DNA of 35,110 nt from Deltaproteobacteria bacterium PRO3 (GTDB lineage Bacteria > UBA10199 > DSSB01): positions 1 to 35,110 of the forward strand of contig SZOV01000026.1 in assembly GCA_030263375.1 (NCBI GenBank). Direction: 5' to 3'. Position 1 is the first letter of the stretch, and each line of letters opens with the position of its first letter. Below, in pieces: positions 6,001 through 34,923 of the stretch. Both the position numbers and the translations under genes were made by a program. The notes beneath the pieces are model-generated. The model was not told the origin of the DNA, did no database searches, and was given only the letters and a program-made list of their open reading frames with translations.

Positions 6001-7979
6001 GGGGGGACCTTCGAACTTTGGAGACGGAGGCGAGCGTGGATTCTCCCGCCTTCGAGGCCGCGGCCCGACGCCTGGCCGCCGTAGTGCGGACGCGCCGCTT
6101 CGACGCGGCCTTCCGCGGCGCCGACGTGCCGCTGATGTCCGGCGAGATGCGCCGCGACTTCGCCCGCCGCGTCGCCGAGCTCTACGATCCGGCCGCCGGC
6201 CCGGGGCGAGTGGCGGAGCTGCTGCCCCCGCCGCCGGTCGCGCCGCCCGAGCCCGGCGTCACCGAGCGCCGCGACATGATTCAGCGCGGCTTACTCGATT
6301 TGGCCTTCTCCGGCCGAGCCCGGCCGGCCTTCGCGGAACGTCTCCGCGCCGTCGACCAGCTGGAACTCCTTGCCACGCGGCTCGAGGAGGACGGCTTCGC
6401 TGAGGCGGCCTCGGACTTGCGGACCGACTTGACGGTGCTGCGCGAAGGCAGCGTTCACGGCCCGGCCTTTCAAAACACGATGCGCCGGCTCGGCCGCGTG
6501 CTGGGCACCCACGTGGGCGAGGCAACCTCGGTGCCGCTCGTCAACGCGATCGGCGAAGCCGACTTCGCCAGGCTGGCCCAAAGCATCGAAGCCATTTACC
6601 GTCCCCCCGCCGTCGAGGCCCCCGCGGTGGCCGAGGGCGCGCCGCTCGAGGGCGATCCCTTCGATTTCGGCGATCTCAACGCGGAACTGGGCCTAGAGGG
6701 CGGAAGCTCCCCGCGCCGTCCGGCGACCGGGACCGCCGACCCCCTCGATTGGGGCGACATGAACGCCGAGCTGGGCCTCGAGGCGCCGGGCACCGCGCGG
6801 CCTCCCGAGAGCGGCGGCGCTCCCGAGGCGCCCCCGCCGGAGGCCCCGGTAGCCCCCGTCGTCCCCCTGCGTCCGCCCGTTCCTGCGGTACGCGAGGCCC
6901 CGCGCCTTGCGGCCTTGGCCGCCGACGTCGCGGTGATGGGCGACACCGTCCTGATCGGGGAAGAAGTATTTTCGCTGCGCACCGAGCGCGCCGACGCCGT
7001 GATGGGTGAGGTCCCGCCCGTGGAACGCACCGTGTTCCGCTTCACCAACACCACCCTGACCGGCGGCTCGGGCGTCGCCTTGGCTCTACCCAGCACCTAC
7101 ACCGCGGAGGACGCGGCCCGGATGGTCTCGCGGCTCTCGCCTTCGGTGCGCCGCAGCTTGAGCCGAATGCGGCCCGAGGACGTGGGGCGCATCGTGGAGA
7201 TGTCTGAGCGGATGCGCGCTTCGTCTCCCGCCACGACGGTGGAGGGATATGCCTTGCCCGCCTCCATGGGCGGAGGCACCGTCGGCGGCGGCATCGGCGA
7301 AAGCGTCGTCTGCACCGGAGAGATTATCGGCGTCGGCAGCGGCCGCACCACCTTCCGCGGCTACGTCACCGAGGCCGACGGCACGCGGCGTCCCGTGGCC
7401 CTGGTGATGCTCACCCATTCGATGGGCGGGACCTTCCACAGCGAGGCCTTGAACTTAAGCCGCCTGGCCGAGGCCGGCGTCGGCGAGGTCCGCTTCGACG
7501 GGCTGGTCCGAATCGACGGCCGCCAAGCCTTGGTCGTCAACCTGGCCGAGGGCACGCCGCACGTCGGGCTGGGCGATCTCTCGGTTCGGGATCGCGCCGA
7601 TTTCAACCCGCTGATGGCCCGCGATCTCGCGCGGATGGCGGTCGCCGGCTACACCTCGGGGGCGGGAACGGACTTTCAGTATATTTGGGGAAGGGACGCG
7701 CGCGGACGGCCGCGCCTGCAGTGGATCGACACCGAGTCCTCGGTCCTGACGATCGACGACGCACGCACGGCGGCCTTGCGCGAGCGCCTGGGCCGCGAGA
7801 CCCTCACGGCCCAGGATTGGTATTTGGAAAATCTCCGCGGCTTCGGCCTCTACAACCCGGAGACGGGACGCTTCGCCGACGGGGTGCCGCACACCTTTCA
7901 GGACGCCCTGCGCTACGAGCCGAGCGCCTCGCGGCCCCGCGGCGAGCGCAGCAGCACCCTCCCTCCGCCGCCGAGCTAG
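3..7979 (+). CDS. Giant multi-domain protein, 5'-truncated by the window edge
   Basis: Function not recognised. The frame is open with strongly GC-rich third positions from base 3, 57 codons before the first Met at 174, and that ATG has no ribosome binding site, so the true start lies outside the window. Residues below are counted from that Met (2601 aa visible). About 1-670 is helical and TPR-like. About 680-885 is a hydrophobic Gly/Ala-rich module shared with the two large genes at 8587-14948. About 1143-1240 and 1700-1803 are two copies of a beta-rich FHA-like domain with the pattern LxVDFS ... PETA ... GDRIRxADGRE. About 1438-1530 and 1553-1640 are a duplicated helical unit, and about 1890-2015 and 2030-2143 another. 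Low-complexity linkers carry a recurring GTVV motif. About 2375-2590 resembles a degenerate protein-kinase fold: VALVM stands where VAIK is expected, and WIDTES (Asp2519) resembles the DFG region. No enzymatic activity can be asserted. The stop codon shares the CTAG at 7976-7979 with the convergent toxin gene. Confidence 0.9.
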   Translation, partial: SDLTDRDRTDRIGRNLTELFELRRSLRGATTHEWIEGRDVELVTHDAEERIAEVNTLMRDYAIDLHNASSGFIESRGASAAIDRLMSGIIEGEREALVPRLSAEGLTEYCRQSAEAEAAVERAGGLSDPAERRTALAEALRGFVALGDSTRVNDVFDQMVASLPADAGDLLRLQVFTAMGSILHGSGMGAEERLRDLASPIARRLASTPTPSMYREEIEVDDFSVGGTTRAHTVSRTLVNPRAYLDTAASILAVRSYFTAVGDSEAARATDERLGTLRSQLDDQLGGTTDSRRRIEIAATSVEIDMALDGIASPEHLSAWRNSIRSATDLPTDDRLTQARTLLRVATLCRREAESSGTTRTDLAEINTWATQVIGDIAADRIRHLRNERHVDAEFADAVIADFRSRLDRAVTDGDTAWLGAVSERAIDQFADLAQSGHVLLSGRHTPPTRRELQACLQAAAIFGRLGLNARVNEAMAPLITQAEGIENSTERANFYLTLGQVFQEAGMSTEANGMLDRIVALDVEGAPRELHRIAEMVPAMREMNLGHLDRARELLGAIRGNPRAEEMLRNVEGAVRRARALQVLDALRLVAGDYIAQERERGSTRASESDREIRRALDEAQRLILSGRCGSVREALRRFSDYGLRDMLWESRASAPIRDILDASADITLSDDTFSDRMLSFASSLSAGRMYSSASQIGNLLTRNPHTRDAARALVDGIPGEARLSGILTELGNMTIIFAESDAAAIRSGVITAVTFGVGSLAARGAELAFAAYVTETTLASTVALRATGFVAGSLTEAVTYNLADMAFETMFSGRTDHWTLENFGRRVGAMLVTFMFCRSMGAITSGLGRAAARTSLLGEAAAGGGRTLTLGGRIAVGTLGYGGTITGLTGVEYLNEAMGLHPSEGHVPFLTRLLGAAVMDAQMRLAGRLANEVTGGTIERWGAATRERYAIHELLPAVERLGFGRPNERGELSAEGMTALSAMLARVARGESAADVASSVGRETSGDLSRVTSMVLGVDANSAEGRRLQALLFSYRASHPEADLAEVAGRLQVEAGRLARAAGLREGPAYEIVRAELLRRALASGATVESLSSGGEAMERLRPELEGLANELLGPRGAASLEGQRLIGDLLLRTLDHPGGVSVEGGVVARIREQVRGMGLDPASAAGRRMAADLLLARLAPASETLALEANAEAGSSRLDGGVLHVDFSRPGFRHVSIAGHGEIWFGETAAAGEYRVDNHTGETITVIRAHAVPEGSGRSMTETLAPETASAPAGSTVLRPGDRIRFADGREFVVGEPLRAARAEAPAEGPGAEGTARPGRTRTGEAPVIPLEGRGERPPTAEPDLLAAFRHADPSEPPSRELLRRSFALSDRLARELGLTDPHDAAANRPFREAFARRAARGPVTESTLREIRDSFRALDASLHGVDPMMRSEVRRRAFTRLLSGEMSGEAARELSRRIREGEVRVETGRDGALDIVEVPAEGRAEARSTARRRIFDHLAEAHFPETVTARLRSGYESGSVTLERLEATVESLPAVRRWISAGGVEPSSTAGHRILSRTVVGLAEGRLELREGRVVEAARGEGPRVRAPETGGTAEGAPPLPAEVEGLITRNFPERLRERLRAGVRDGSITQARLEAAVGALPAVRRFIADSGTDPSSREGARILDRVVTDLATGRLEVREGRIVRPGVETEARPEGGDEGRGTVVEGRGRGARDRAESGEEAGTVVEGRGRGGRTEGSAEGEGPMVSGAGSEGVSFSEGTLTVDFSDARRPFRNATIPGLRGPIRLALATGGGVMLLNTSGEPVTVVRPNAREGFLPEEVVRPETATAHPGRAELVSGDRIRLADGREIVLRFEIPAEGAEAPAEPAGPPGGPVEPESGAGGGTVVLGPRRPPTPDPAAEVGTVVIRGGRPAEPAPREGILPMANPEGTPVEAIPRAPRVLADGERAAAIDVRLTEIAFPDPAERGGFANNTVALELGSIADGLEGAHPEVARSIRGDLRTLETEASVDSPAFEAAARRLAAVVRTRRFDAAFRGADVPLMSGEMRRDFARRVAELYDPAAGPGRVAELLPPPPVAPPEPGVTERRDMIQRGLLDLAFSGRARPAFAERLRAVDQLELLATRLEEDGFAEAASDLRTDLTVLREGSVHGPAFQNTMRRLGRVLGTHVGEATSVPLVNAIGEADFARLAQSIEAIYRPPAVEAPAVAEGAPLEGDPFDFGDLNAELGLEGGSSPRRPATGTADPLDWGDMNAELGLEAPGTARPPESGGAPEAPPPEAPVAPVVPLRPPVPAVREAPRLAALAADVAVMGDTVLIGEEVFSLRTERADAVMGEVPPVERTVFRFTNTTLTGGSGVALALPSTYTAEDAARMVSRLSPSVRRSLSRMRPEDVGRIVEMSERMRASSPATTVEGYALPASMGGGTVGGGIGESVVCTGEIIGVGSGRTTFRGYVTEADGTRRPVALVMLTHSMGGTFHSEALNLSRLAEAGVGEVRFDGLVRIDGRQALVVNLAEGTPHVGLGDLSVRDRADFNPLMARDLARMAVAGYTSGAGTDFQYIWGRDARGRPRLQWIDTESSVLTIDDARTAALRERLGRETLTAQDWYLENLRGFGLYNPETGRFADGVPHTFQDALRYEPSASRPRGERSSTLPPPPS

Positions 7980-8293
7980 AGGAACAAACCGCGCCAATCC
8001 CGGCCGGGCGCCGTGAGGTGGAGCACCAGGACCGAGTGGACCTCCACGGTATAGAAAATCAAATAGCCGTTGTGTTCGATGAAACGGATCTCCGGTCCTC
8101 CTTCGGGACCTTCCAACAGCTCGACCCTGCGACCGCGCCGGGGAAACCTGCCCAAGGCAAGGATTTTTCTTTTCAGACCCTCGGTGAATCGTCGGGCGCG
8201 CGCCGGCGAGTCCTCGCCGATGAAACGATAGATACCCTCCAATTCCCGCAAGGCATCGCTGTGGATTCGGACCCGATAGGATTTAACGCCCAT
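7976..8293 (-). CDS. RelE/ParE-family toxin (type II toxin-antitoxin)
   Basis: A 105-aa basic protein with the RelE/ParE layout: an N-terminal strand (YRVRIHSDA), two helices (ALRELEGIYRFI and ARARRFTEGLKRKI), the FPRRGRRV turn, then the strands around PEIRFIEHNGYLIFY and VLVLHLT. Family members either cleave mRNA at the ribosome (RelE) or poison gyrase (ParE). The sequence alone does not say which, although the long helical hairpin and the FP-RxGR turn look more ParE-like. Its ATG lies inside the 3' end of the antitoxin gene (11-nt overlap), the usual order and coupling for such pairs. Its TAG overlaps the stop codon of the convergent giant gene, so the two reading frames meet with no intergenic base. 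Confidence 0.88.
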   Translation of the reverse strand: MGVKSYRVRIHSDALRELEGIYRFIGEDSPARARRFTEGLKRKILALGRFPRRGRRVELLEGPEGGPEIRFIEHNGYLIFYTVEVHSVLVLHLTAPGRDWRGLFL

Positions 8294-8552
8294 GGTACTT
8301 GCGATCGAGGGCTCGGAAGGCGGCCGAGGCGTCGACGGAGGCCTCAGGCCGGCGGGCGCGCCGCTTGAGCAGATCGCGCAGGTCCTTGATCTGCGAAGCG
8401 ATCTCCAAGGTCTCGAGGTCGCAAACGCCGAAATCCGGGCGGCCGTTGTTGGTGATGATGATGGGGGTCTTCTTGAGCTGGGCCTTGACCTTGTCGAGGT
8501 TGGTCCGCAGCTCGGACATGGGTAGGATGGATTTTTCGAAGGAAATGGCCAT
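8283..8552 (-). CDS. Phd/YefM-family antitoxin
   Basis: An 89-aa protein with the Phd/YefM N-terminal pattern: KSILPMSELRTNLDKV, then PIIITNNGRPDFGV, then a helical segment from DLETLEIASQI. In this family the N-terminal half dimerises and binds the operator, and the charged C-terminus (here KRRARRPEASVDASAAFRAL) wraps the toxin. It is the first gene of the pair and overlaps the toxin start by 11 nt. The ATG at 8552 follows an AT-rich promoter so closely that almost no leader remains, and no Shine-Dalgarno sequence is visible, so a near-leaderless mRNA is likely. A later Met (MSELRTN) would delete the first strand and is a poorer choice. Confidence 0.88.
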   Translation of the reverse strand: MAISFEKSILPMSELRTNLDKVKAQLKKTPIIITNNGRPDFGVCDLETLEIASQIKDLRDLLKRRARRPEASVDASAAFRALDRKYHGR

Positions 8553-26672: not shown

Positions 26673-27338
26673 TTAGCCCCGCGCCCGCTTCGGCGCCTCG
26701 GCCTCCTCGATGCTGCCCAGGATCGCGTCCAAGCCACCGCGCAGCGCGGGGTGGATGATGCCGGTGATGACGAAGGTGTAGATCTCGCGCTCGATGTCGC
26801 GGATCGCGGGCTTCTCGGTGCCCAGGACGTACTGGTAAAATACCTCTTTCACCGCGCCCAGCAGGCAGACCGCCAGCACGCCGACGTCGCCCTCGCGCAC
26901 GAAGCCCATCTTCTGCCCCTGCCTGAGGCCGCGGCGGATGTAGTCGAGGACCAGCTCATAGAATTTTCGGATGTGCTCGTCGAACTCGCTGTCCAGGCCC
27001 ACCGCGTCGCTGAACACCAGCTTGATCCACAGCGGGTTCTTCATCAGCAGCGCGGTCACCCGCCGCAGGTTGCCCATGATCTGCGCCGGGATCTGGTCGA
27101 CGGCGTCGAGCGGCAGGGCGCGGATCTGCCCCGCGATCTCCTGGAAGATCTGCGCGATGATCGCCTCGAAGATCTCGCGCTTGCCCTCGAAGTAAAGATA
27201 GAAGGTGCCGCGCGCGACCTTCGCCTGCGCGATGATGTCGGAGACCTGCGTGTCGTGATAGCCCTTCTTGCCGAAGGCGGCCAAGGCGGCCTGCATCAGT
27301 TGAGTTTTGCGCTGCTCTTTGTCGAGGTGTTGGCCCAT
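26673..27338 (-). CDS. TetR-family transcriptional regulator
   Basis: A 221-aa repressor-type protein. The N-terminal helix-turn-helix is standard for the family: LMQAALAAFGKKGYHDTQVSDIIAQAKVARGTFYLYFEGKRE contains helices 1-4, with the GTFYLYF signature at about 44-50. The helical remainder would bind an effector and dimerise. It is divergent from the ether-lipid operon, and a palindrome of the TetR operator type lies between them, so regulation of that operon and of itself is likely. A fatty acid or acyl-CoA ligand would make sense but is inferred from the neighbours. The ATG has no ribosome binding site at normal distance; a perfect AAGGAGGT lies 39 bases upstream beyond a stable hairpin (27346-27373). 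Confidence 0.93.
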   Translation of the reverse strand: MGQHLDKEQRKTQLMQAALAAFGKKGYHDTQVSDIIAQAKVARGTFYLYFEGKREIFEAIIAQIFQEIAGQIRALPLDAVDQIPAQIMGNLRRVTALLMKNPLWIKLVFSDAVGLDSEFDEHIRKFYELVLDYIRRGLRQGQKMGFVREGDVGVLAVCLLGAVKEVFYQYVLGTEKPAIRDIEREIYTFVITGIIHPALRGGLDAILGSIEEAEAPKRARG

Positions 27339-27469: not shown

Positions 27470-27544
27470 GACTTGTTTTTCCTCGAAAATTCGTCTAGCT
27501 CAAGGCCCATTCTTTCCCGGGAAATCTTTACAGAGGAATCGCGC

Positions 27545-29359
27545 ATGGAAAACTCGCCGACCCGCATCTTCCCCCCGGCCCCCGCTCCCAAGCCCGATGA
27601 AGAAGAGAGCCTCGACGTCTGGGGCTTCCGCGACACGAAATTCGAAATCCTAAACAACGGCAGCGTCCGACTCACCGGCTCGCGTTACTCGCTCTGCGGC
27701 CAGGAGCTGCCCTCGCTGCTCCCCTGGGTGAGCGAGGTCATGAAAGTGCCGGTGCGCGCCGACGACGTCTATCCGCCGGCCTATCCCACGCCCATCCCCG
27801 AGGCGCTGGCGCACCCCCAGTTCCTCGCCGAGCTGCGCAAGACCTTCGCCGAGGACCAGCTGAGCCAGGACCCGAAGATCCGCCTGCGCCACGGCCACGG
27901 CCACACCCAAGAGGAGATGTTCGCGATCAAGTACGGCAAGATCGGACGCATCCCCGACCTGGTCGTCTTCCCCACCGAGGAAGGACAGGTCGCGGCCCTG
28001 GTCGAGGCGGCGCTGAAGTACGAGGCCTGCCTCATCCCCTTCGGCGGCGGAACCTCGGTGACCGAGGCCCTGCGCTGCCCCGAAAACGAGGCCCGCTTCA
28101 TCGTCTCGGTCGACATGCGCCGCATGAACCGCATCCTCTGGATCGATCCGGTCAATCGCATGGCCTGCATCCAGGCCGGCGCGGTGGGCCGCCACATCGT
28201 CGAGCAGCTCAAGGGCTACGGCTTCACGATGGGCCACGAGCCCGACTCGATCGAGTTCTCCACCCTGGGCGGCTGGATCGCCACCCACGCCAGCGGCATG
28301 AAGAAGAACCGCTACGGCAACATCGAGGATCTCGTCCTCGACATCCACGCCGTGACCGCCGCGGGCAAATTGGAGCGCAGCTCGGTCACCCCCCGCGAGT
28401 CGGTGGGCAGCGATCCGCGGCTCTGGCTCTTCGGATCGGAGGGAAACTTGGGCATCGTCACCTCAGCGGTGGTGAAGCTCTTCCCCCTGCCGGAAGTGCA
28501 GAACTACGGATCGATCCTCTTCCCCACTTTCCAGGACGGCGTCGCCTTCCTCTACGAGCTCGCCCAGACCCACGCGGTGCCCGCCAGCATCCGCCTGGTC
28601 GACAACCTGCAATTCCAATTCGGCATGGCGCTCAAGCCCAAGGCGACGGGGCTCAAGGCGCTGAAGAGCAAGCTGGAAAAATTCTTCGTCGTGAAGCTGA
28701 AGGGCTTCGACCCGCAGCAGATGGTCGCCTGCACCATCGTCTTCGAGGGCAGCCGTGCCGAGGTCGCCGCGCAAGAGAAGACGGTCTACGGCCTGGCCAA
28801 GCGCCACGGCGGGATGAAGGCCGGCGCCGAGAACGGCATCCGCGGCTACCAGCTGACCTTCGGCATCGCCTACATCCGCGACTTCGTGATGAAGCACTAC
28901 TTCCTCGCCGAGTCCTTCGAGACCTCGGTGCCCTGGAGCCAGGCCGAGGCGCTCTGCGCCAACGTCAAGCGGCGCCTGGCCGAGGAGTACGAACGCCGTA
29001 AGCTGCCCGGCAAGCCCTTCATCACCTGCCGGGTGACCCAGGTCTACGAGACCGGCGTCTGCGTCTACTTCTACTTCGGCTACTATTATAAGGGCGTTCC
29101 CCATCCTTCCGAGGTCTACGCCGAGCTCGAAGTCATCGCCCGCGAGGAAATTTTGAAAAACGGCGGCTCGCTCTCCCACCACCACGGGATCGGTAAGCTT
29201 CGCCAGCGCTTCCTCCCGCAGATCAAGTCGCCCGCGACCCTCGCCTGGGTCGAGCAGGCCAAGCGCGCCCTCGATCCCCACAACGTCTTCGGCAGCGCCA
29301 ACCAGGGGGTCGGGGCGAAGGACTCGCCGGCCCCGAAGGCCGCGGGAGGCGCGCAATGA
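27545..29359 (+). CDS. agpS: Alkyldihydroxyacetonephosphate synthase (AGPS), ether-lipid synthesis
   Basis: A 604-aa FAD enzyme of the vanillyl-alcohol-oxidase fold. AGPS exchanges the acyl chain of acyl-DHAP for a fatty alcohol and so makes the ether bond of alkyl-DHAP. The match to animal AGPS is close in many blocks: IPFGGGTSVTEAL (FAD phosphate loop), GHEPDSIEFSTLGGWIATHASGMKKNRYGNIEDLV, GSEGNLGIVTSA, PASIRLVDNLQFQFG, GFDPQQ, GYQLTFGIAYIRD, ESFETSVPW, CRVTQVYETG, and the active-site run GGSLSHHHGIGKLR near the C-terminus. The length fits the bacterial and mature animal enzymes; there is no peroxisomal presequence. The ATG at 27545 has AGAGGAA six bases upstream; an earlier start at 27473 lacks this. 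It is first in a four-gene operon, and its stop overlaps the next start (ATGA). Confidence 0.93.
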   Translation: MENSPTRIFPPAPAPKPDEEESLDVWGFRDTKFEILNNGSVRLTGSRYSLCGQELPSLLPWVSEVMKVPVRADDVYPPAYPTPIPEALAHPQFLAELRKTFAEDQLSQDPKIRLRHGHGHTQEEMFAIKYGKIGRIPDLVVFPTEEGQVAALVEAALKYEACLIPFGGGTSVTEALRCPENEARFIVSVDMRRMNRILWIDPVNRMACIQAGAVGRHIVEQLKGYGFTMGHEPDSIEFSTLGGWIATHASGMKKNRYGNIEDLVLDIHAVTAAGKLERSSVTPRESVGSDPRLWLFGSEGNLGIVTSAVVKLFPLPEVQNYGSILFPTFQDGVAFLYELAQTHAVPASIRLVDNLQFQFGMALKPKATGLKALKSKLEKFFVVKLKGFDPQQMVACTIVFEGSRAEVAAQEKTVYGLAKRHGGMKAGAENGIRGYQLTFGIAYIRDFVMKHYFLAESFETSVPWSQAEALCANVKRRLAEEYERRKLPGKPFITCRVTQVYETGVCVYFYFGYYYKGVPHPSEVYAELEVIAREEILKNGGSLSHHHGIGKLRQRFLPQIKSPATLAWVEQAKRALDPHNVFGSANQGVGAKDSPAPKAAGGAQ

Positions 29360-32046
29360 CCAAGCCTGGCCACCATGTCCTGATCACCGGCGTCACCGGC
29401 TTCGTCGGCAAGGTCGTCTTAGAAGAGATCCTGCGCCGCGCGGAAGAGTTCGACCTGGAGAAGGTCTACGTCCTGATCCGCTCCGGCAAGAAGGGCCACT
29501 CGCCCCAAGAGCGCTTCCACCACGAGGTCGCGACCTCGCCCTGCTTCTCGAAGCTGCCGGCCGGCTGGGAAGACCGCGTCGCCGTCGTCGGCGGCGAGCT
29601 GAGCGAGACCGCCTGCGGCCTGAACGCCGCCGACCGCGAGACGCTGGGCGGACAACTCACGCACATCATCAACTGCGCCGCCTCGGTCGAATTCGACCTC
29701 CCCCTGCCCGTCGCGGCCAAGGCCAACATCGCCAGCAGCCTCCATGTTCTCGAGCTGGCCAAGTCCTGCCGGCGCCTGAAGCGCTTCGTCAACGTCTCCA
29801 CCGCCTACGTGACGCCGCACCGCGGGACGAACGTCCCCGTCGCCGAGGCGCCGGTCGCCCTGCCGCGCCCGGCCCGCGAGATCTATCAAGACATCCTCGA
29901 CGGGAAATTCGACGCGCGCAAGCTCTTGAAAGAGACGGGACACCCCAACACCTATACCCTGACCAAGTGCCTCTCCGAGCACCTGCTGCTGGAAAACCGC
30001 GGCGAGGTCCCCTTAAGCATCGTGCGGCCCAGCATCGTCTCGGCCTGCTGGAAGCACCCCTTCCCCGGCTGGATCGACAGCCGCGCGGCCTTCGCCGGCT
30101 TCGTCGCCCTGATCGGCGCGGGCTACCTGCGGGCGGTGGTCGTCGACGAGGCCACGCTGCTCGACATCGTCCCCTGCGACGTGGTCGCCGACCGCATCCT
30201 GCGCAGCGCCTTCACCGATTCCGACGCCGCGCCCGGCGAACCCGCCATCCGCTACGCGGTGGCCGGCAAGCGCCACAGCTGCTCGGTGCGCGAGAACATC
30301 GACGTGATCGAGGGCTACTTCCGCCGCTACCCCCTCGACCGCTACCCGCACCTGCGCTACACCGGGCCCGACAACCTGACCTTCCGCCTGCGCCACTGGC
30401 AGTGGCACCTGGGTCCCGGCAAGGCCCTGGCCGCCTGGTTCAAGCTGAGCGGCAACGAGAAGAAACGAAAGCAGGTCGAGCGCCTCACCGGCCAGCTGCA
30501 TTATTTGAATACGGGTTTTCCCTACTTCACGCACTGCACCTTCGACTTCCGCCCCTCGATGCCGATCGACGACGTAGATTTCGAGAAAAAGGCCTACATC
30601 GAGACGGTGTGCAGCGGCGTCTACCGCTTTTTGATGAAGAAGGACGAACGCGAGGTCCCCTTCGCGGGGCGCAAGCACCGCGGCTTCGAGGGCGACCTGC
30701 GCTGGACCGCCTCGCGGCCCAAGGGCAACGGCGCGATCCGCGCCTCGGCCTACCTGGCGCGCAAGGTGCTGCGCCGCTCGGCGGACGCCATCACCTTCGA
30801 CCGCAAGGCCTTCGAGGCCGCGCGCCGCGCTATCCCCGACGACACCCTGCTGGTGATCGTCCCCACGCACCGCAGCTACCTAGATTTCATCCTCTGCTCT
30901 TATCTCTTCTTCGCCTATCCCGAGCTGGGGATCGCCATCCCGCACATCGCGGCGGCGCAGGAGTTCGGCAAGATCCCGCTGCTCGGCAAGGTCATCCGCA
31001 AAACCCAGGCCTTCTACGTCCAGCGCGGCCTGGGCCGCGAAAACCCCGAGCTGACGCGGCAGATCCACGACTTGGTGAGTCGCAAGCAGGCCTTGGAGTT
31101 CTTCATCGAGGGCACGCGCAGCCGCTCGCGCCAGGCCTTGAAGCCGCGGCGCGGGATCCTCAAGTGCCTCCAGGCCTCGGGCCAGGCCTGCAGCATCTTG
31201 CCGATCTCGATCAGCTACGACCGCCTGCCCGAAGAAAACTCTTTCCAACGCGAGCTGAGCGGGGCGCCCAAGCCCAAGATGCGTCTGGGCGGCCTCTTGG
31301 CCTGGATCGGCCGCGTCCTGCGCGGCGAGATCCGCTTGGGCCGCATCCACATGACCTGCGGCCGGCCCCTGACGATGAACCTCGACAGCGACCTGAACGG
31401 ACTGAGCCTCCAGGTGATGGCCGAGCTGCAGGCGGGCCTGGCGCCCACCACCCACCACCTGCGCAGCTTTTTGCAAAAGCACCCCCTGCCGGGCATCGGC
31501 CTGGACTGGCTGAAGTCGGCCATCGAGGCCCGCGGCGGCCGCGTCCTGGAGAGCCCGCTCAAGGGGGAAGAGAAGGTCGACCCGACGATCGCCGCGACCT
31601 TCCACTACCAGTGGAGCCACTATTTCTTCCCCGAGGCCCTGGCCGCCTTTCCGGAGCACCCGGCGATCCGGCATTTCCTGCGAGGTAATCTTTACATGGA
31701 AGTCCCCACGCCGCGCCCCGGCGCGGCGGGCGACGAGCGCCTTGGCTCGGTACTCCAAGCCCTCTTCCAGCCCCTCTGCCGCGACTACTTCGGCGCAGCG
31801 GAGGCCCTGGGAGAGCGCCCGGGCCACGTGCCGCTCCGCTCCGCCGTGGAGCTGCTGCCGGAGATCCCCGGCGCGCACCTGCCGCACCTCGAGGCCTGCC
31901 TCGAGGACCTCGTCGCGCGCGAGATCCTCGTCCAGCTGCCCAAGGGCGAGGGTTACGCCTGGGGGCCGAAGGCGCAGGACTTGAATCGTTACCGCGAGGC
32001 CTGCCGCTGGCCGGAGGGCGCCGCGCGTCTGGCGGCGGTGGGTTGA
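29356..32046 (+). CDS. Fatty acyl-CoA reductase fused to GNPAT/PlsB-type DHAP acyltransferase
   Basis: An 896-aa two-enzyme fusion. Residues about 1-380 are an alcohol-forming fatty acyl-CoA reductase of the extended SDR type: NAD(P)H motif TGVTGFVGK, NCAASVEFD, FVNVSTAYV and the catalytic YTLTK, with a shortened C-terminal FAR domain to about 440. Residues about 450-730 are a glycerolipid acyltransferase: motif I PTHRSYLDF (His505, Asp510), motif II AFYVQRG, motif III FFIEGTRSRS (from about 582) and motif IV PISISYD, followed by GAPKPK and GGLL as in animal DHAP acyltransferase (GNPAT) rather than E. coli PlsB. The last 170 residues are helical. One chain would thus make both the fatty alcohol and acyl-DHAP that the upstream AGPS combines. 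The 4-nt overlap with agpS supports coupled translation. Which acyl acceptor is used (DHAP or glycerol-3-phosphate) is inferred. Confidence 0.92.
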   Translation: MTKPGHHVLITGVTGFVGKVVLEEILRRAEEFDLEKVYVLIRSGKKGHSPQERFHHEVATSPCFSKLPAGWEDRVAVVGGELSETACGLNAADRETLGGQLTHIINCAASVEFDLPLPVAAKANIASSLHVLELAKSCRRLKRFVNVSTAYVTPHRGTNVPVAEAPVALPRPAREIYQDILDGKFDARKLLKETGHPNTYTLTKCLSEHLLLENRGEVPLSIVRPSIVSACWKHPFPGWIDSRAAFAGFVALIGAGYLRAVVVDEATLLDIVPCDVVADRILRSAFTDSDAAPGEPAIRYAVAGKRHSCSVRENIDVIEGYFRRYPLDRYPHLRYTGPDNLTFRLRHWQWHLGPGKALAAWFKLSGNEKKRKQVERLTGQLHYLNTGFPYFTHCTFDFRPSMPIDDVDFEKKAYIETVCSGVYRFLMKKDEREVPFAGRKHRGFEGDLRWTASRPKGNGAIRASAYLARKVLRRSADAITFDRKAFEAARRAIPDDTLLVIVPTHRSYLDFILCSYLFFAYPELGIAIPHIAAAQEFGKIPLLGKVIRKTQAFYVQRGLGRENPELTRQIHDLVSRKQALEFFIEGTRSRSRQALKPRRGILKCLQASGQACSILPISISYDRLPEENSFQRELSGAPKPKMRLGGLLAWIGRVLRGEIRLGRIHMTCGRPLTMNLDSDLNGLSLQVMAELQAGLAPTTHHLRSFLQKHPLPGIGLDWLKSAIEARGGRVLESPLKGEEKVDPTIAATFHYQWSHYFFPEALAAFPEHPAIRHFLRGNLYMEVPTPRPGAAGDERLGSVLQALFQPLCRDYFGAAEALGERPGHVPLRSAVELLPEIPGAHLPHLEACLEDLVAREILVQLPKGEGYAWGPKAQDLNRYREACRWPEGAARLAAVG

Positions 32047-32077
32047 TGGATTCGTAGGTTTGCACAGGAGCGTGAAT

Positions 32078-33157
32078 ATGAAAAAAATTCCCTTCCTCGT
32101 CACCGGCGCCACCGGCTTCGTCGGCCGCCACCTGCTCCAGGCCTTGAGCCAAGACCCCGAGGTCCTGCCGATCGCCCTGGTCCGCGACAAGAAAAGTTGG
32201 GCCTCCCAAAACTGGACCCACGGCCTGAAGGGCGTCGAGCTGATCGAGGGCTCGGTGACCGAGCCGAAAAAATGGAAGGACGATCCGCGCCTACAGGGCC
32301 TGGGCGGAATCTACCACCTGGCCGCCGTCATCAAGCACACGCGGCGCGAGCCCGAGGAGATGCTGCGCACCAACGTCGAGGGGCTGCTGCGCATGGTCGA
32401 GCTGGGCGCAGAGCGGAAATGCCGCGTCCTCTTCGTCTCCACCTCCGGGACGGTGGGCTGCTTCGCGACGCCGGACCGCCAGGCGGACGAGAAATCGCCC
32501 TACCAAGAGGCGACCGTCGGCTCTTGGCCCTACTACGCCTCGAAGATCCGCGCCGAGCGCGAGGGCCGCAAGCTGGCCGAGTCGCTGGGCGTCGAGCTGG
32601 TGATCCTGCGCCCGCCGGTGCTGCTGGGCCCGGGCGATCACCGGATGCGCGCTACCAGCCACATCGCCCGCCTGCTGCGCGGCAAGCTCCCCTTCATCGT
32701 CAACGGCGGGATGCACTTCGTCGACATCCGCGACGTGACGCAGGCCATGCTCCGCGCCATGCGGATCTCGCGCCCCAAGCCCGTCTACCACCTCTGCGGG
32801 ACCGCCTACCGCATCGAGGCCTTTTTCAAAAAAGTCGCCGAGCTGGGCGGGGTGCCTCCGCCCAAGCTGCAACTGCCGCCGCTGGCGGCCAAGCTGCTCG
32901 CCAAGACCTCGGGCCTGCTCGACCGCTTCCTCCCGCCCCGCCCCCACCCCATCCTGCCGGACCCCGTGGTCTTCGAGATGGCCTCGAAGCACTGGGGCCT
33001 GAGCTCGCTCTATGCCAAGGAAGACCTGGGTTTTGTCTCGCGCAACCCCGAGACGACGCTGCGCGACACCATCCAGTGGCTGAAGGAGAATGTCCCGGAG
33101 CTGAAGGAAAAGGCCGCCGCCGAGCTGGGGCTGGAGGGCGCCGGGATGAAGCCTTGA
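32078..33157 (+). CDS. NAD-dependent epimerase/dehydratase-like SDR
   Basis: A 359-aa extended short-chain dehydrogenase. TGATGFVGRHL is the nucleotide-binding glycine motif, YHLAAVIKHT and LFVSTSGTVG are the expected strands, and YYASK holds the catalytic Tyr and Lys, followed by LRPPVLLGPGD. It is most like 3-beta-hydroxysteroid-dehydrogenase/epimerase-type members. In this operon an alkyl- or acyl-DHAP reductase, the next step of ether-lipid synthesis, is an attractive role, but the animal enzyme is a classical SDR and the sequence does not settle the substrate. AGGAG lies 7 bases before the ATG at 32078; a TTG at 32060 is a poorer start. It follows the fusion gene after 31 bases. Confidence 0.9.
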   Translation: MKKIPFLVTGATGFVGRHLLQALSQDPEVLPIALVRDKKSWASQNWTHGLKGVELIEGSVTEPKKWKDDPRLQGLGGIYHLAAVIKHTRREPEEMLRTNVEGLLRMVELGAERKCRVLFVSTSGTVGCFATPDRQADEKSPYQEATVGSWPYYASKIRAEREGRKLAESLGVELVILRPPVLLGPGDHRMRATSHIARLLRGKLPFIVNGGMHFVDIRDVTQAMLRAMRISRPKPVYHLCGTAYRIEAFFKKVAELGGVPPPKLQLPPLAAKLLAKTSGLLDRFLPPRPHPILPDPVVFEMASKHWGLSSLYAKEDLGFVSRNPETTLRDTIQWLKENVPELKEKAAAELGLEGAGMKP

Positions 33158-33213
33158 GCTTCCTCGCAAAATAGTCCATGTTGCGGCCCAGTCGGGAGGC
33201 CGCGCCGCGACCC

Positions 33214-34587
33214 ATGAGCTCGCTTCTGCACAGGTTCTCCGCCAAACTCTTCCAGCCCGTCGACGCCGCCTCTTTGGGGATGTTCCGCATCCTGTTCGGC
33301 GCCCTGATGGCCTGGCAGGCCTACTATTATTTGGCGCGGGATCGCTTCGTCGACTACTACCTCGAGCCCGGCTTCCGCTTCAGCTATGCCTTCTTCGAGT
33401 GGCTGCGTCCGCTGCCCGAGCCCTACTTCCGCGCCCTGCTGATCCTGATGGTCGCCGCGGGGATCGGCATCGCCGCCGGCATCCTCTACCGGACCTGCGT
33501 CCTGGTCTTTCTGCTGGGCTTCTCCTACGTCTTCCTCTTGGACAAGGCCTATTACAACAACCACTACTACGCGATCATCCTGCTCTGCTTCCTGATGCTG
33601 TTTACCTCGGCGACGCGGTGGGGCTCGCTCGCGCAGCGCCCTCGGCCGTGCGCCCCCTTCGTGCCCAATTGGAACCTCTTCATCCTCCGCGCCCAGTTCT
33701 TCATCATTTATTTCTACGGAGGGCTCGCCAAGCTCAACGCCGACTGGCTGCAGGGCGAACCGATGCGGCGCTGGCTGCTCAAGGTGGCGGACCTGCCCAT
33801 CGTCGGCCCGCTGATGACGACCGAGTGGGCGCCCTACTTCTTCAGCTGGGGCGGCCTGGTCTTCGACCTCTCCATCGGCTTCCTCCTGTGGTGGCGCAAG
33901 ACGCGCTTCGCCGCCTTCCTCGTCGTGCTCTTCTTCAACCTGACGAACAGCGTCCTGTTCCAGATCGGCGTCTTCCCCTTCCTGATGATCGCCGCGGCCA
34001 CCCTCTTCGACGACCCCGACTGGCCGCGCAAATTATTCGCTCAGAAATCCCCGCCGCCGGCGGAGGTCGCGGCCCCAGCGCAAAGCCGAGGGCGGGAGCT
34101 TACCTTGGCCCTGATCGCCGCGTATTTCGCGGTGCAAATCCTCGTCCCCTTCCGGCATTTCCTCATCCCGGGCGAGGTCAGTTGGACGGAGGAAGGCCAC
34201 CTCTTCGCCTGGCACATGAAACTGAGGGACAAGCAGGGACGGCTCAAGATCTGGGTGACCGACCCGGCTACGCAACGGACCTTCCAGGTCGACCCACTGC
34301 TGGAGCTGAATGAATTTCAATACGGAAAGATGAGGCAACGGCCGCAATTCATCTGGCAGTACGTCCAGCACGTGAAGCGCGAGCTCGCCGGCCAGGGGAT
34401 CCAAAACCCGATCATCCGGGTGGATGCCTGGGTCACTTTGAACGGCCGCCCCTACCAGCAGCTGATCGATCCCGACGTCGATTTGGCGACCGCCGACTCC
34501 TCCTTCTTCTCCGCCGATCCGTGGATCATTCCCTTGGATCCCAACCACCACCCGGGCACCCTCCCCGGAGATCCACCGACAGACTAA
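33214..34587 (+). CDS. Vitamin-K-dependent gamma-carboxylase homologue (HTTM family), full length
   Basis: A 457-aa membrane protein (469 aa if started at 33178, which has no ribosome binding site; GGGAGG lies 14 bases before 33214). The animal enzyme GGCX carboxylates Glu side chains using vitamin K hydroquinone. The match covers both parts: the membrane half (SLGMFRILFGALM, LLDKAYYNNHYY, FFIIYFYGGLAKLNADWLQGEP, where the Lys corresponds to the active base of GGCX, LFQIGVFPFLMIAA, DWPRKL) and the soluble half (FRHFLIPGEVSWTEEGHLFAWHMKLRD, then VDAWVTLNGRPYQQLIDPDVDL). Most HTTM bacterial proteins are shorter; this one keeps the lumenal-type domain. It has at least five hydrophobic helices. 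It is last in the ether-lipid operon, and its stop merges with a terminator. The protein substrate is unknown. Confidence 0.9.
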   Translation: MSSLLHRFSAKLFQPVDAASLGMFRILFGALMAWQAYYYLARDRFVDYYLEPGFRFSYAFFEWLRPLPEPYFRALLILMVAAGIGIAAGILYRTCVLVFLLGFSYVFLLDKAYYNNHYYAIILLCFLMLFTSATRWGSLAQRPRPCAPFVPNWNLFILRAQFFIIYFYGGLAKLNADWLQGEPMRRWLLKVADLPIVGPLMTTEWAPYFFSWGGLVFDLSIGFLLWWRKTRFAAFLVVLFFNLTNSVLFQIGVFPFLMIAAATLFDDPDWPRKLFAQKSPPPAEVAAPAQSRGRELTLALIAAYFAVQILVPFRHFLIPGEVSWTEEGHLFAWHMKLRDKQGRLKIWVTDPATQRTFQVDPLLELNEFQYGKMRQRPQFIWQYVQHVKRELAGQGIQNPIIRVDAWVTLNGRPYQQLIDPDVDLATADSSFFSADPWIIPLDPNHHPGTLPGDPPTD

Positions 34588-34641: not shown

Positions 34642-34923
34642 CTAGAAGCCGGAATCGTCCACGTCGATGACGGGATCGCCGTCGTCGACGATGATCTCGC
34701 AGTTGTTGCAGCCCGAGACGGTGCAGACGCCGTTCTCGAAGCTGGAGTCGTCGCAATCGTTTTCGTTGGCGTAGACGGTGCACTCGTCGGCGGTGGCCAC
34801 GTTGACCTCTCCGTCGCAGTCGTCGCCGCTGCCGGCGCAGTTGGTGATGACGGTGGCGAATATGAAGACGGCCGGGATGACGACAAGCAGGGCCCGCAGG
34901 GAATTGCGGAATTTATTGAGCAT
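34642..34923 (-). CDS. Small Cys-rich acidic lipoprotein
   Basis: A 93-aa precursor, not assigned to a family. The signal region (SLRALLVVIPAVFIFATVITNC) ends in a plausible lipobox ITNC, so the mature part of about 64 residues would be lipid-anchored. That part is very acidic and has several further Cys in short spacings (CDGE, DECTVY, NDCDDSS, GVCTVSGCNNCE), suggesting disulfides or metal binding. It ends in an Asp-rich run. GGGAG lies about 7 bases before the ATG at 34923; an ATG five codons earlier is less favoured. A good sigma-70 promoter and a strong terminator bracket it, so it is a single-gene unit. Confidence 0.82.
   Translation of the reverse strand: MLNKFRNSLRALLVVIPAVFIFATVITNCAGSGDDCDGEVNVATADECTVYANENDCDDSSFENGVCTVSGCNNCEIIVDDGDPVIDVDDSGF

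Follow-up and report, generated by a model that had tools for sequence, protein, structure and literature searches.

The window, that is the whole analysed stretch of 35110 bases and the entire contig C26 of its genome (G000), carries a gene for a real core enzyme of the vitamin K-dependent gamma-carboxylase (VKGC) type, homologous to GGCX, which is known for the clotting and bone proteins of animals. From its sequence features and those of its neighbours, we judge the chances to be about even that this core is an active VKGC acting on the acidic tail of an exported partner, with a small protein of 93 residues encoded beside it as the first candidate.

The VKGC gene and its product

The VKGC gene (33178..34587, forward strand) codes for a protein of 469 aa, assigned to the free-standing subtype on the basis of its open reading frame (ORF), Pfam matches, alignment to GGCX and an AlphaFold2 (AF2) model. 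An internal ATG at 33214, used as the start in the preliminary description, is plausible and the likely VKGC start. Two Pfam domains are recognized: the HTTM membrane domain (33250..34023, forward strand; PF05090, residues 25-282, E 1.7e-80, profile positions 1-259 of 259, i.e. full length) and the VKGC lumenal domain (34096..34539, forward strand; PF22777, VKGC_lumenal_dom, residues 307-454, E 1.4e-45, profile positions 3-150 of 152). A phmmer search against PDB sequences retrieved GGCX entries only (8 distinct sequences, E 3e-56 to 8.5e-56); human GGCX was matched by residues 19-454 (E 3e-56), with 151 identities in 427 aligned pairs. The similarity to GGCX over both the membrane and soluble halves, claimed in the preliminary description, is thus well founded. 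The two domains are present nearly end to end, but its term "full-length" goes too far: the protein ends at approximately human residue 506 by sequence, or at 512-542 in the structural comparison with GGCX rows, of 758-residue chains. It therefore represents the catalytic core without the distal C-terminal region of human GGCX. NCBIfam offers no specific model for this protein; a weak SdpB match far under the cut-off was set aside. A viral origin was also considered and dropped, as no relative of the protein was found among viral contigs.

Active site and predicted fold

Passages of PMC12589487 give K218 as the active base of GGCX, describe the substrate glutamate as held by N159, H160 and Y395 and its backbone by N158 and R436, and list F286, F294, F299, H160, V210, M401 and W223 as lining the naphthoquinone. 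In the alignment to GGCX, K185 of the window VKGC (33730..33732, forward strand) corresponds to K218 and N127-N128-H129 (33556..33564, forward strand) to N158-N159-H160, so that the active-base lysine in AKLNADW and the NNH motif had been correctly located. Further residues kept are, in human numbering, W223, G258, G259, F286, N290, F294, F299, W399, M401 and R476. K218, N159, H160, W223, F286, F299 and W399 are invariant in all 84 aligned bacterial sequences.

Unlike the animal enzyme, the window VKGC does not keep K217 (A184), Y395 (H341), H404 (R), Y425 (Q) or the cysteines of the human C99-C450 disulfide, replaced by F68 and H398; M402 and R436 are both changed to K. The losses of K217, Y395, H404 and C99-C450 count against our preferred reading of the enzyme and its partner.

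An AF2 model built from an alignment of 49 rows reached pLDDT 92.7 and pTM 0.91; it replaced an earlier weak model from 7 sequences (pLDDT 71). Foldseek matched it to GGCX chain 9wfc_A with E 1.9e-27 and TMq 0.83, and VIA-align superposed 445 residues on the same chain with Z 35.0 and rmsd 3.1; Z values of 28-35 over 410-448 residues were obtained for 15 of 16 GGCX rows. Superposition on GGCX had been proposed earlier as a check, and at the level of the predicted structure (Z 35, pLDDT 92.7) it confirms the fold.

Upstream lipid genes

Three genes lie upstream of the VKGC ORF on the same strand and end 20 bp before it: a homologue of alkyl-dihydroxyacetonephosphate synthase (AGPS; 27473..29359; E 1.6e-174 to mammalian AGPS), probably outside the system, and two neighbours assigned by Pfam, a fusion of fatty acyl reductase (male-sterility domain) and acyltransferase (29356..32046) and an NAD-dependent epimerase/dehydratase (32060..33157). 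A TetR-type regulator at 26673-27338, divergent from the AGPS gene, is the likely regulator of the lipid genes. Elsewhere in the window (7976-8552), two small adjoining ORFs resemble, by eye, a RelE/ParE toxin and a Phd/YefM antitoxin.

The position inside a lipid operon, as first described, is correct for the window itself, but it is not conserved within the genus. In G001 the gene before VKGC codes for a DUF4118 protein, and the 5-kb contig is free of lipid genes. In G002 the epimerase and reductase-acyltransferase genes were found with an ATPase-like gene between the epimerase and VKGC, and the contig ends there. Among 18 free-type VKGC loci from other groups, the lipid genes belong to no shared neighbour cluster. 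With VKGC unlinked to the lipid genes in G001 and set apart from them by another gene in G002, a meaningful connection to ether-lipid enzymes is not supported, and a function in a lipid operon is rejected as the main reading.

The same evidence bears on the possibility that the fold has been repurposed, either for quinol epoxidation without protein carboxylation or for carboxylation of a lipid or small molecule from the ether-lipid genes. The AGPS and reductase-acyltransferase genes upstream on the same strand would fit such a role, as would the altered glutamate pocket, where His replaces Y395 and Lys replaces M402. Considering that the lipid genes are unlinked in G001 and shared with none of the 18 free-type loci, and that active base, asparagine and histidine are all kept, we find repurposing quite improbable.

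The small Cys-rich exported protein

Convergent with the VKGC gene, on the opposite strand, lies a gene that was missed in the preliminary description (34642..34923, reverse strand). It codes for a small Cys-rich protein of 93 aa with a signal peptide, a putative lipoprotein, for which neither Pfam nor NCBIfam gave a match. The residue preceding its putative lipobox cysteine is asparagine, which is unusual at this position, so lipidation is uncertain. Its C-terminal residues 77-93 (34645..34695, reverse strand) form an acidic tail, VDDGDPVIDVDDSGF, which is near-invariant in the genus comparison.

This protein is the only neighbour common to VKGC in all three genomes of the genus (G000, G001 and G002). 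A model of the small protein matches 4 of 99 genomes, namely these three and, weakly, G004. The window and G001 proteins are 56% identical overall and differ at one position in the last 17 residues. Codon differences between them are 5 synonymous and 1 nonsynonymous in the tail versus 6 and 24 in the preceding 47 codons (Fisher p 0.006). The DNA pattern for DVDDSGF followed by a stop codon occurs once in each of the three genus genomes and in 0 of the 4 others among the 7 genomes of the family. G004, which belongs to the same family and is 99% complete, has no PF22777 match; its homologue of the small protein, 105 aa long, aligns to no more of the model than positions 16-76 and has no acidic tail at its end.

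The small protein may nevertheless be a bystander kept by local synteny, with an active VKGC that has another exported substrate. The two genes converge and do not form an operon, and the pair is confined to three genomes, two of which are close relatives (VKGC 91% identical), with a single tail-less homologue for comparison, all of which counts against a partnership; moreover, most free-standing VKGCs in other phyla have no acidic-tailed neighbour. A bystander would not be expected to stay in 3 of 3 genomes when the upstream genes change, as they do between G001 and the others, nor to carry a constrained tail that is absent in the VKGC-less G004, and on balance we consider this explanation rather unlikely. 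The small protein as partner remains our preferred reading. The preliminary description had suggested that the enzyme modifies a surface protein, and the conserved exported Cys-rich neighbour points in the same direction, a surface protein being a likely target.

Distribution and subfamilies of bacterial VKGCs

Bacterial full-length relatives had been described as rare. A scan of genome contigs matched at least 593 stretches, of which at least 524 encode VKGC relatives, and in the phylum to which G073 belongs, 50 of 146 genomes carry PF22777; rarity is thus rejected. Among 99 genomes of the "relatives" sample, PF22777 was found in 6, including the window's own, and all 6 belong to the window's family.

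From the at least 524 confirmed relatives, 80 were kept for comparison. L018-L020 (duplicates of L016, L017 and L015) and L013 (frameshift) were left out of the alignment and tree; in L013 (3290-4630) a frameshift or assembly error divides the G003 VKGC between two ORFs. In a tree of 84 bacterial VKGC sequences and human GGCX, a branch with support 100/99 sets apart the VKGCs linked to imelysin genes (59 rows), and the window VKGC is placed among 23 free-standing sequences. Human GGCX forms a long branch adjoining the window's family, a placement not to be over-read since the sample was picked by likeness to the window. The two subfamilies are also separated without exception in the 84-sequence set by the residues at human positions 290 and 401, N290/M401 in free-standing and T290/V401 in imelysin-linked VKGCs; human GGCX has N and M. 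The VKGCs of L238 and L239 are of neither subtype (S290, L401). The window VKGC has N257 and M347 at these positions and lacks the T290/V401 signature. Its assignment to the imelysin type was rejected on this ground, on the lack of an imelysin match in G000 and on the epimerase gene directly upstream.

The window's genome contains a second full VKGC (L011, 6989-8632, contig C99). It adjoins a convergent gene for a choice-of-anchor Q repeat protein, and the same pair is present in G002.

Acidic-ended neighbours of free-standing VKGCs

Several free-standing VKGC loci adjoin genes for acidic-ended proteins, most with a likely export signal. Apparently unrelated acidic-tailed proteins are encoded upstream of VKGC in L238 (ending GGGGGSDFD), L239 (GGGSDSDSD), L022 (LLDDDDF, overlapping VKGC by 4 bases), L026 (a cupin protein ending FEEEDFE) and L044 (GDDEDD). 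The acidic-ended neighbour in L093 has a broken reading frame, and in L027 an acidic-tailed protein is located one gene away. Such neighbours occur in a minority of the free-standing loci, the neighbour in L025 is a lipoprotein without acidic tail and that of the second VKGC in G000 has no acidic tail either; all three observations count against tails as partners of VKGC.

An automatic lipoprotein finder detected acidic tails in 3 of 8 proteins near VKGC versus 1 of 82 far from it; the counts and the p-value (0.002) are only indicative, because the lipoprotein finders were written after examples had been seen and they miss known cases. Both finders miss the window and L022, and the one behind these counts also misses L239. 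Across phyla, neighbours common to free-standing VKGCs comprise little beyond those of close kin and common planctomycete proteins; antisense ORFs, which made up many of the shared-neighbour clusters, were ignored. Planctomycete VKGCs in L025, L032, L044 and L093 lie near genes for prepilin-like proteins, and in L025 and L044 these proteins have a visible FTLIELLVVIAIIAIL N-terminus.

Imelysin-linked VKGCs and their D-x-D tails

Imelysin HMMs match 60 of 88 VKGC loci, and the match lies almost without exception just before VKGC. In three genomes of the window's family (G003, G005 and G006), an operon with the gene order imelysin, DUF1111, imelysin ends with VKGC; no imelysin profile match was found in the window's genome. 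The C-terminus D-x-D is present in 60 of 61 imelysin-B proteins (the exception has DGDS) and in 0 of 20 A-type imelysins, and it ends only 1 of 1479 other ORFs of at least 150 aa in the imelysin-B/VKGC loci examined. In an alignment of the 61 imelysin-B sequences, the two terminal aspartates are the only columns conserved to 100%, the mean being 45%. A comparison of imelysin-B with the PDB gave a single distant imelysin match, which provides no control for the tail.

In a second sample, the 146 genomes mentioned above, the imelysin encoded directly upstream of PF22777 ends D-x-D in 50 of 50 cases versus 6 of 35 readable imelysins not adjoining VKGC (Fisher p 3.6e-17, kinship ignored). Not included in this count were 8 matches that stop no later than profile position 340, nor the 8 more distant ones within the same operons; L198 was dropped because its match lies at a contig end, leaving 35 of 36 non-adjacent imelysins. 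Three of the six non-adjacent D-x-D imelysins belong to genomes with a VKGC elsewhere (G151, G213 and G230). The other three come from genomes without a PF22777 match (G128, G229 and G238), which counts against a link between tail and VKGC. Of two Bacteroidota-type genomes, one (L279) has a tail-less imelysin and no VKGC in the stretch examined; the other (L281) has a tailed imelysin with no adjoining VKGC and one elsewhere, an argument against strict adjacency. In L222 (5523-6461) and L226 (4197-5174), a D-x-D imelysin occurs with an FA_hydroxylase (PF04116) membrane protein in place of VKGC; in L226 it is encoded by the next gene. This protein is perhaps another tail-modifying enzyme.

On a tree of 99 imelysins, no more than two changes of tail state occur. 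This leaves a phylogeny-aware test with 1-2 contrasts and without power, and kinship may still be the cause of the association between tail and adjacency. These few independent changes, together with the three genomes that keep D-x-D tails without PF22777 and the resemblance of D-x-D to calcium-loop sequences, would suit tails that serve in docking, sorting or metal binding unrelated to carboxylation, their association with VKGC reflecting shared operon descent. Such an explanation leaves aside that the terminal aspartates are the sole fully conserved columns of imelysin-B, and that other VKGC-adjacent proteins are acidic-tailed as well, compared to 1 of 82 distant lipoprotein-like ORFs (an indicative count); we hold it to be improbable. 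In our reading of the sequences, the acidic tails on exported partners would be carboxylated by bacterial VKGCs or serve them as docking sites.

Proposed mechanism and comparison with known systems

What we infer of the cofactor, catalysis, substrate identity and product of the window VKGC is as follows. Supplied with O2, CO2 and a naphthoquinol (menaquinol), the enzyme would generate a strong base of the vitamin K type and add carboxyl groups to acidic side chains of an exported protein. The most likely partner would be the convergent small Cys-rich protein (34642-34923), engaged via its C-terminal acidic tail; alternatively, this tail may act as a docking signal only. Aspartate predominates both in this tail and in the D-x-D ends of the imelysins, which makes beta-carboxyaspartate a possible product instead of gamma-carboxyglutamate (Gla). 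The window's genome encodes two proteins matching PF02621 in Pfam, which we take to be a family of the futalosine route to menaquinone; the earlier suggestion of menaquinone hydroquinone agrees with the presence of this pathway family, and the enzyme may use it as cofactor. A single VKOR protein is also encoded (G000:C8:9275-9673, L283). Its frame continues into what is, by eye, a thioredoxin/DsbA-like part, so that its role may lie in disulfide formation and not in recycling of the epoxide.

With animal GGCX, the window VKGC shares the HTTM and lumenal domains, the fold, the active base, the Asn/His pair and the naphthoquinone pocket. It differs in missing approximately 215-250 C-terminal residues, which in GGCX comprise the rest of the propeptide-binding domain and the Arch-like domain, and in that no propeptide-type substrate was identified. 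VKGCs of imelysin operons in Bacteroidota, Myxococcota and others, annotated as "vitamin K-dependent gamma-carboxylase", have in common with it the two domains, the catalytic residues and a partner that is exported and ends in acidic residues, which for the window is a proposed one. They form a separate clade, carry T290, V401 and M402 instead of N290, M401 and K402, and have imelysin as partner, for which the window's genome has no match. The bacterial VKGC homologue of Leptospira (VKC) is not known to have the active-base lysine that the window VKGC keeps. Searches of the open-access literature found no paper on the Leptospira vitamin K carboxylase, and no description of the association of VKGC with imelysin, of vitamin K-dependent beta-carboxyaspartate or of a VKGC acting via the acidic C-terminal tail of an exported protein.

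Implications

As a tentative generalization, which we regard as possible and not as probable, bacterial VKGCs would constitute a widespread system for carboxylating the acidic and mostly Asp-ended C-termini of exported partners, probably to beta-carboxyaspartate, which would give these proteins metal-binding ends. Passages of PMC5609570 list VKGC, imelysin and a TonB receptor of Riemerella among putative Fur-regulated genes. If the proposal is true, malonate-like metal-binding ends would equip the imelysin of Fur-regulated operons to capture iron, and would likewise be formed on the small Cys-rich protein in the window's genus. For the latter, a vague guess at a surface protein is narrowed to one 93-residue candidate with a defined tail, and the D-x-D rule supplies concrete candidate substrates in culturable bacteria. 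Vitamin K-dependent carboxylation would then extend to bacterial envelope proteins and iron uptake, and the Gla chemistry of animals would descend, as a specialised branch, from the carboxylation of tails in bacteria.
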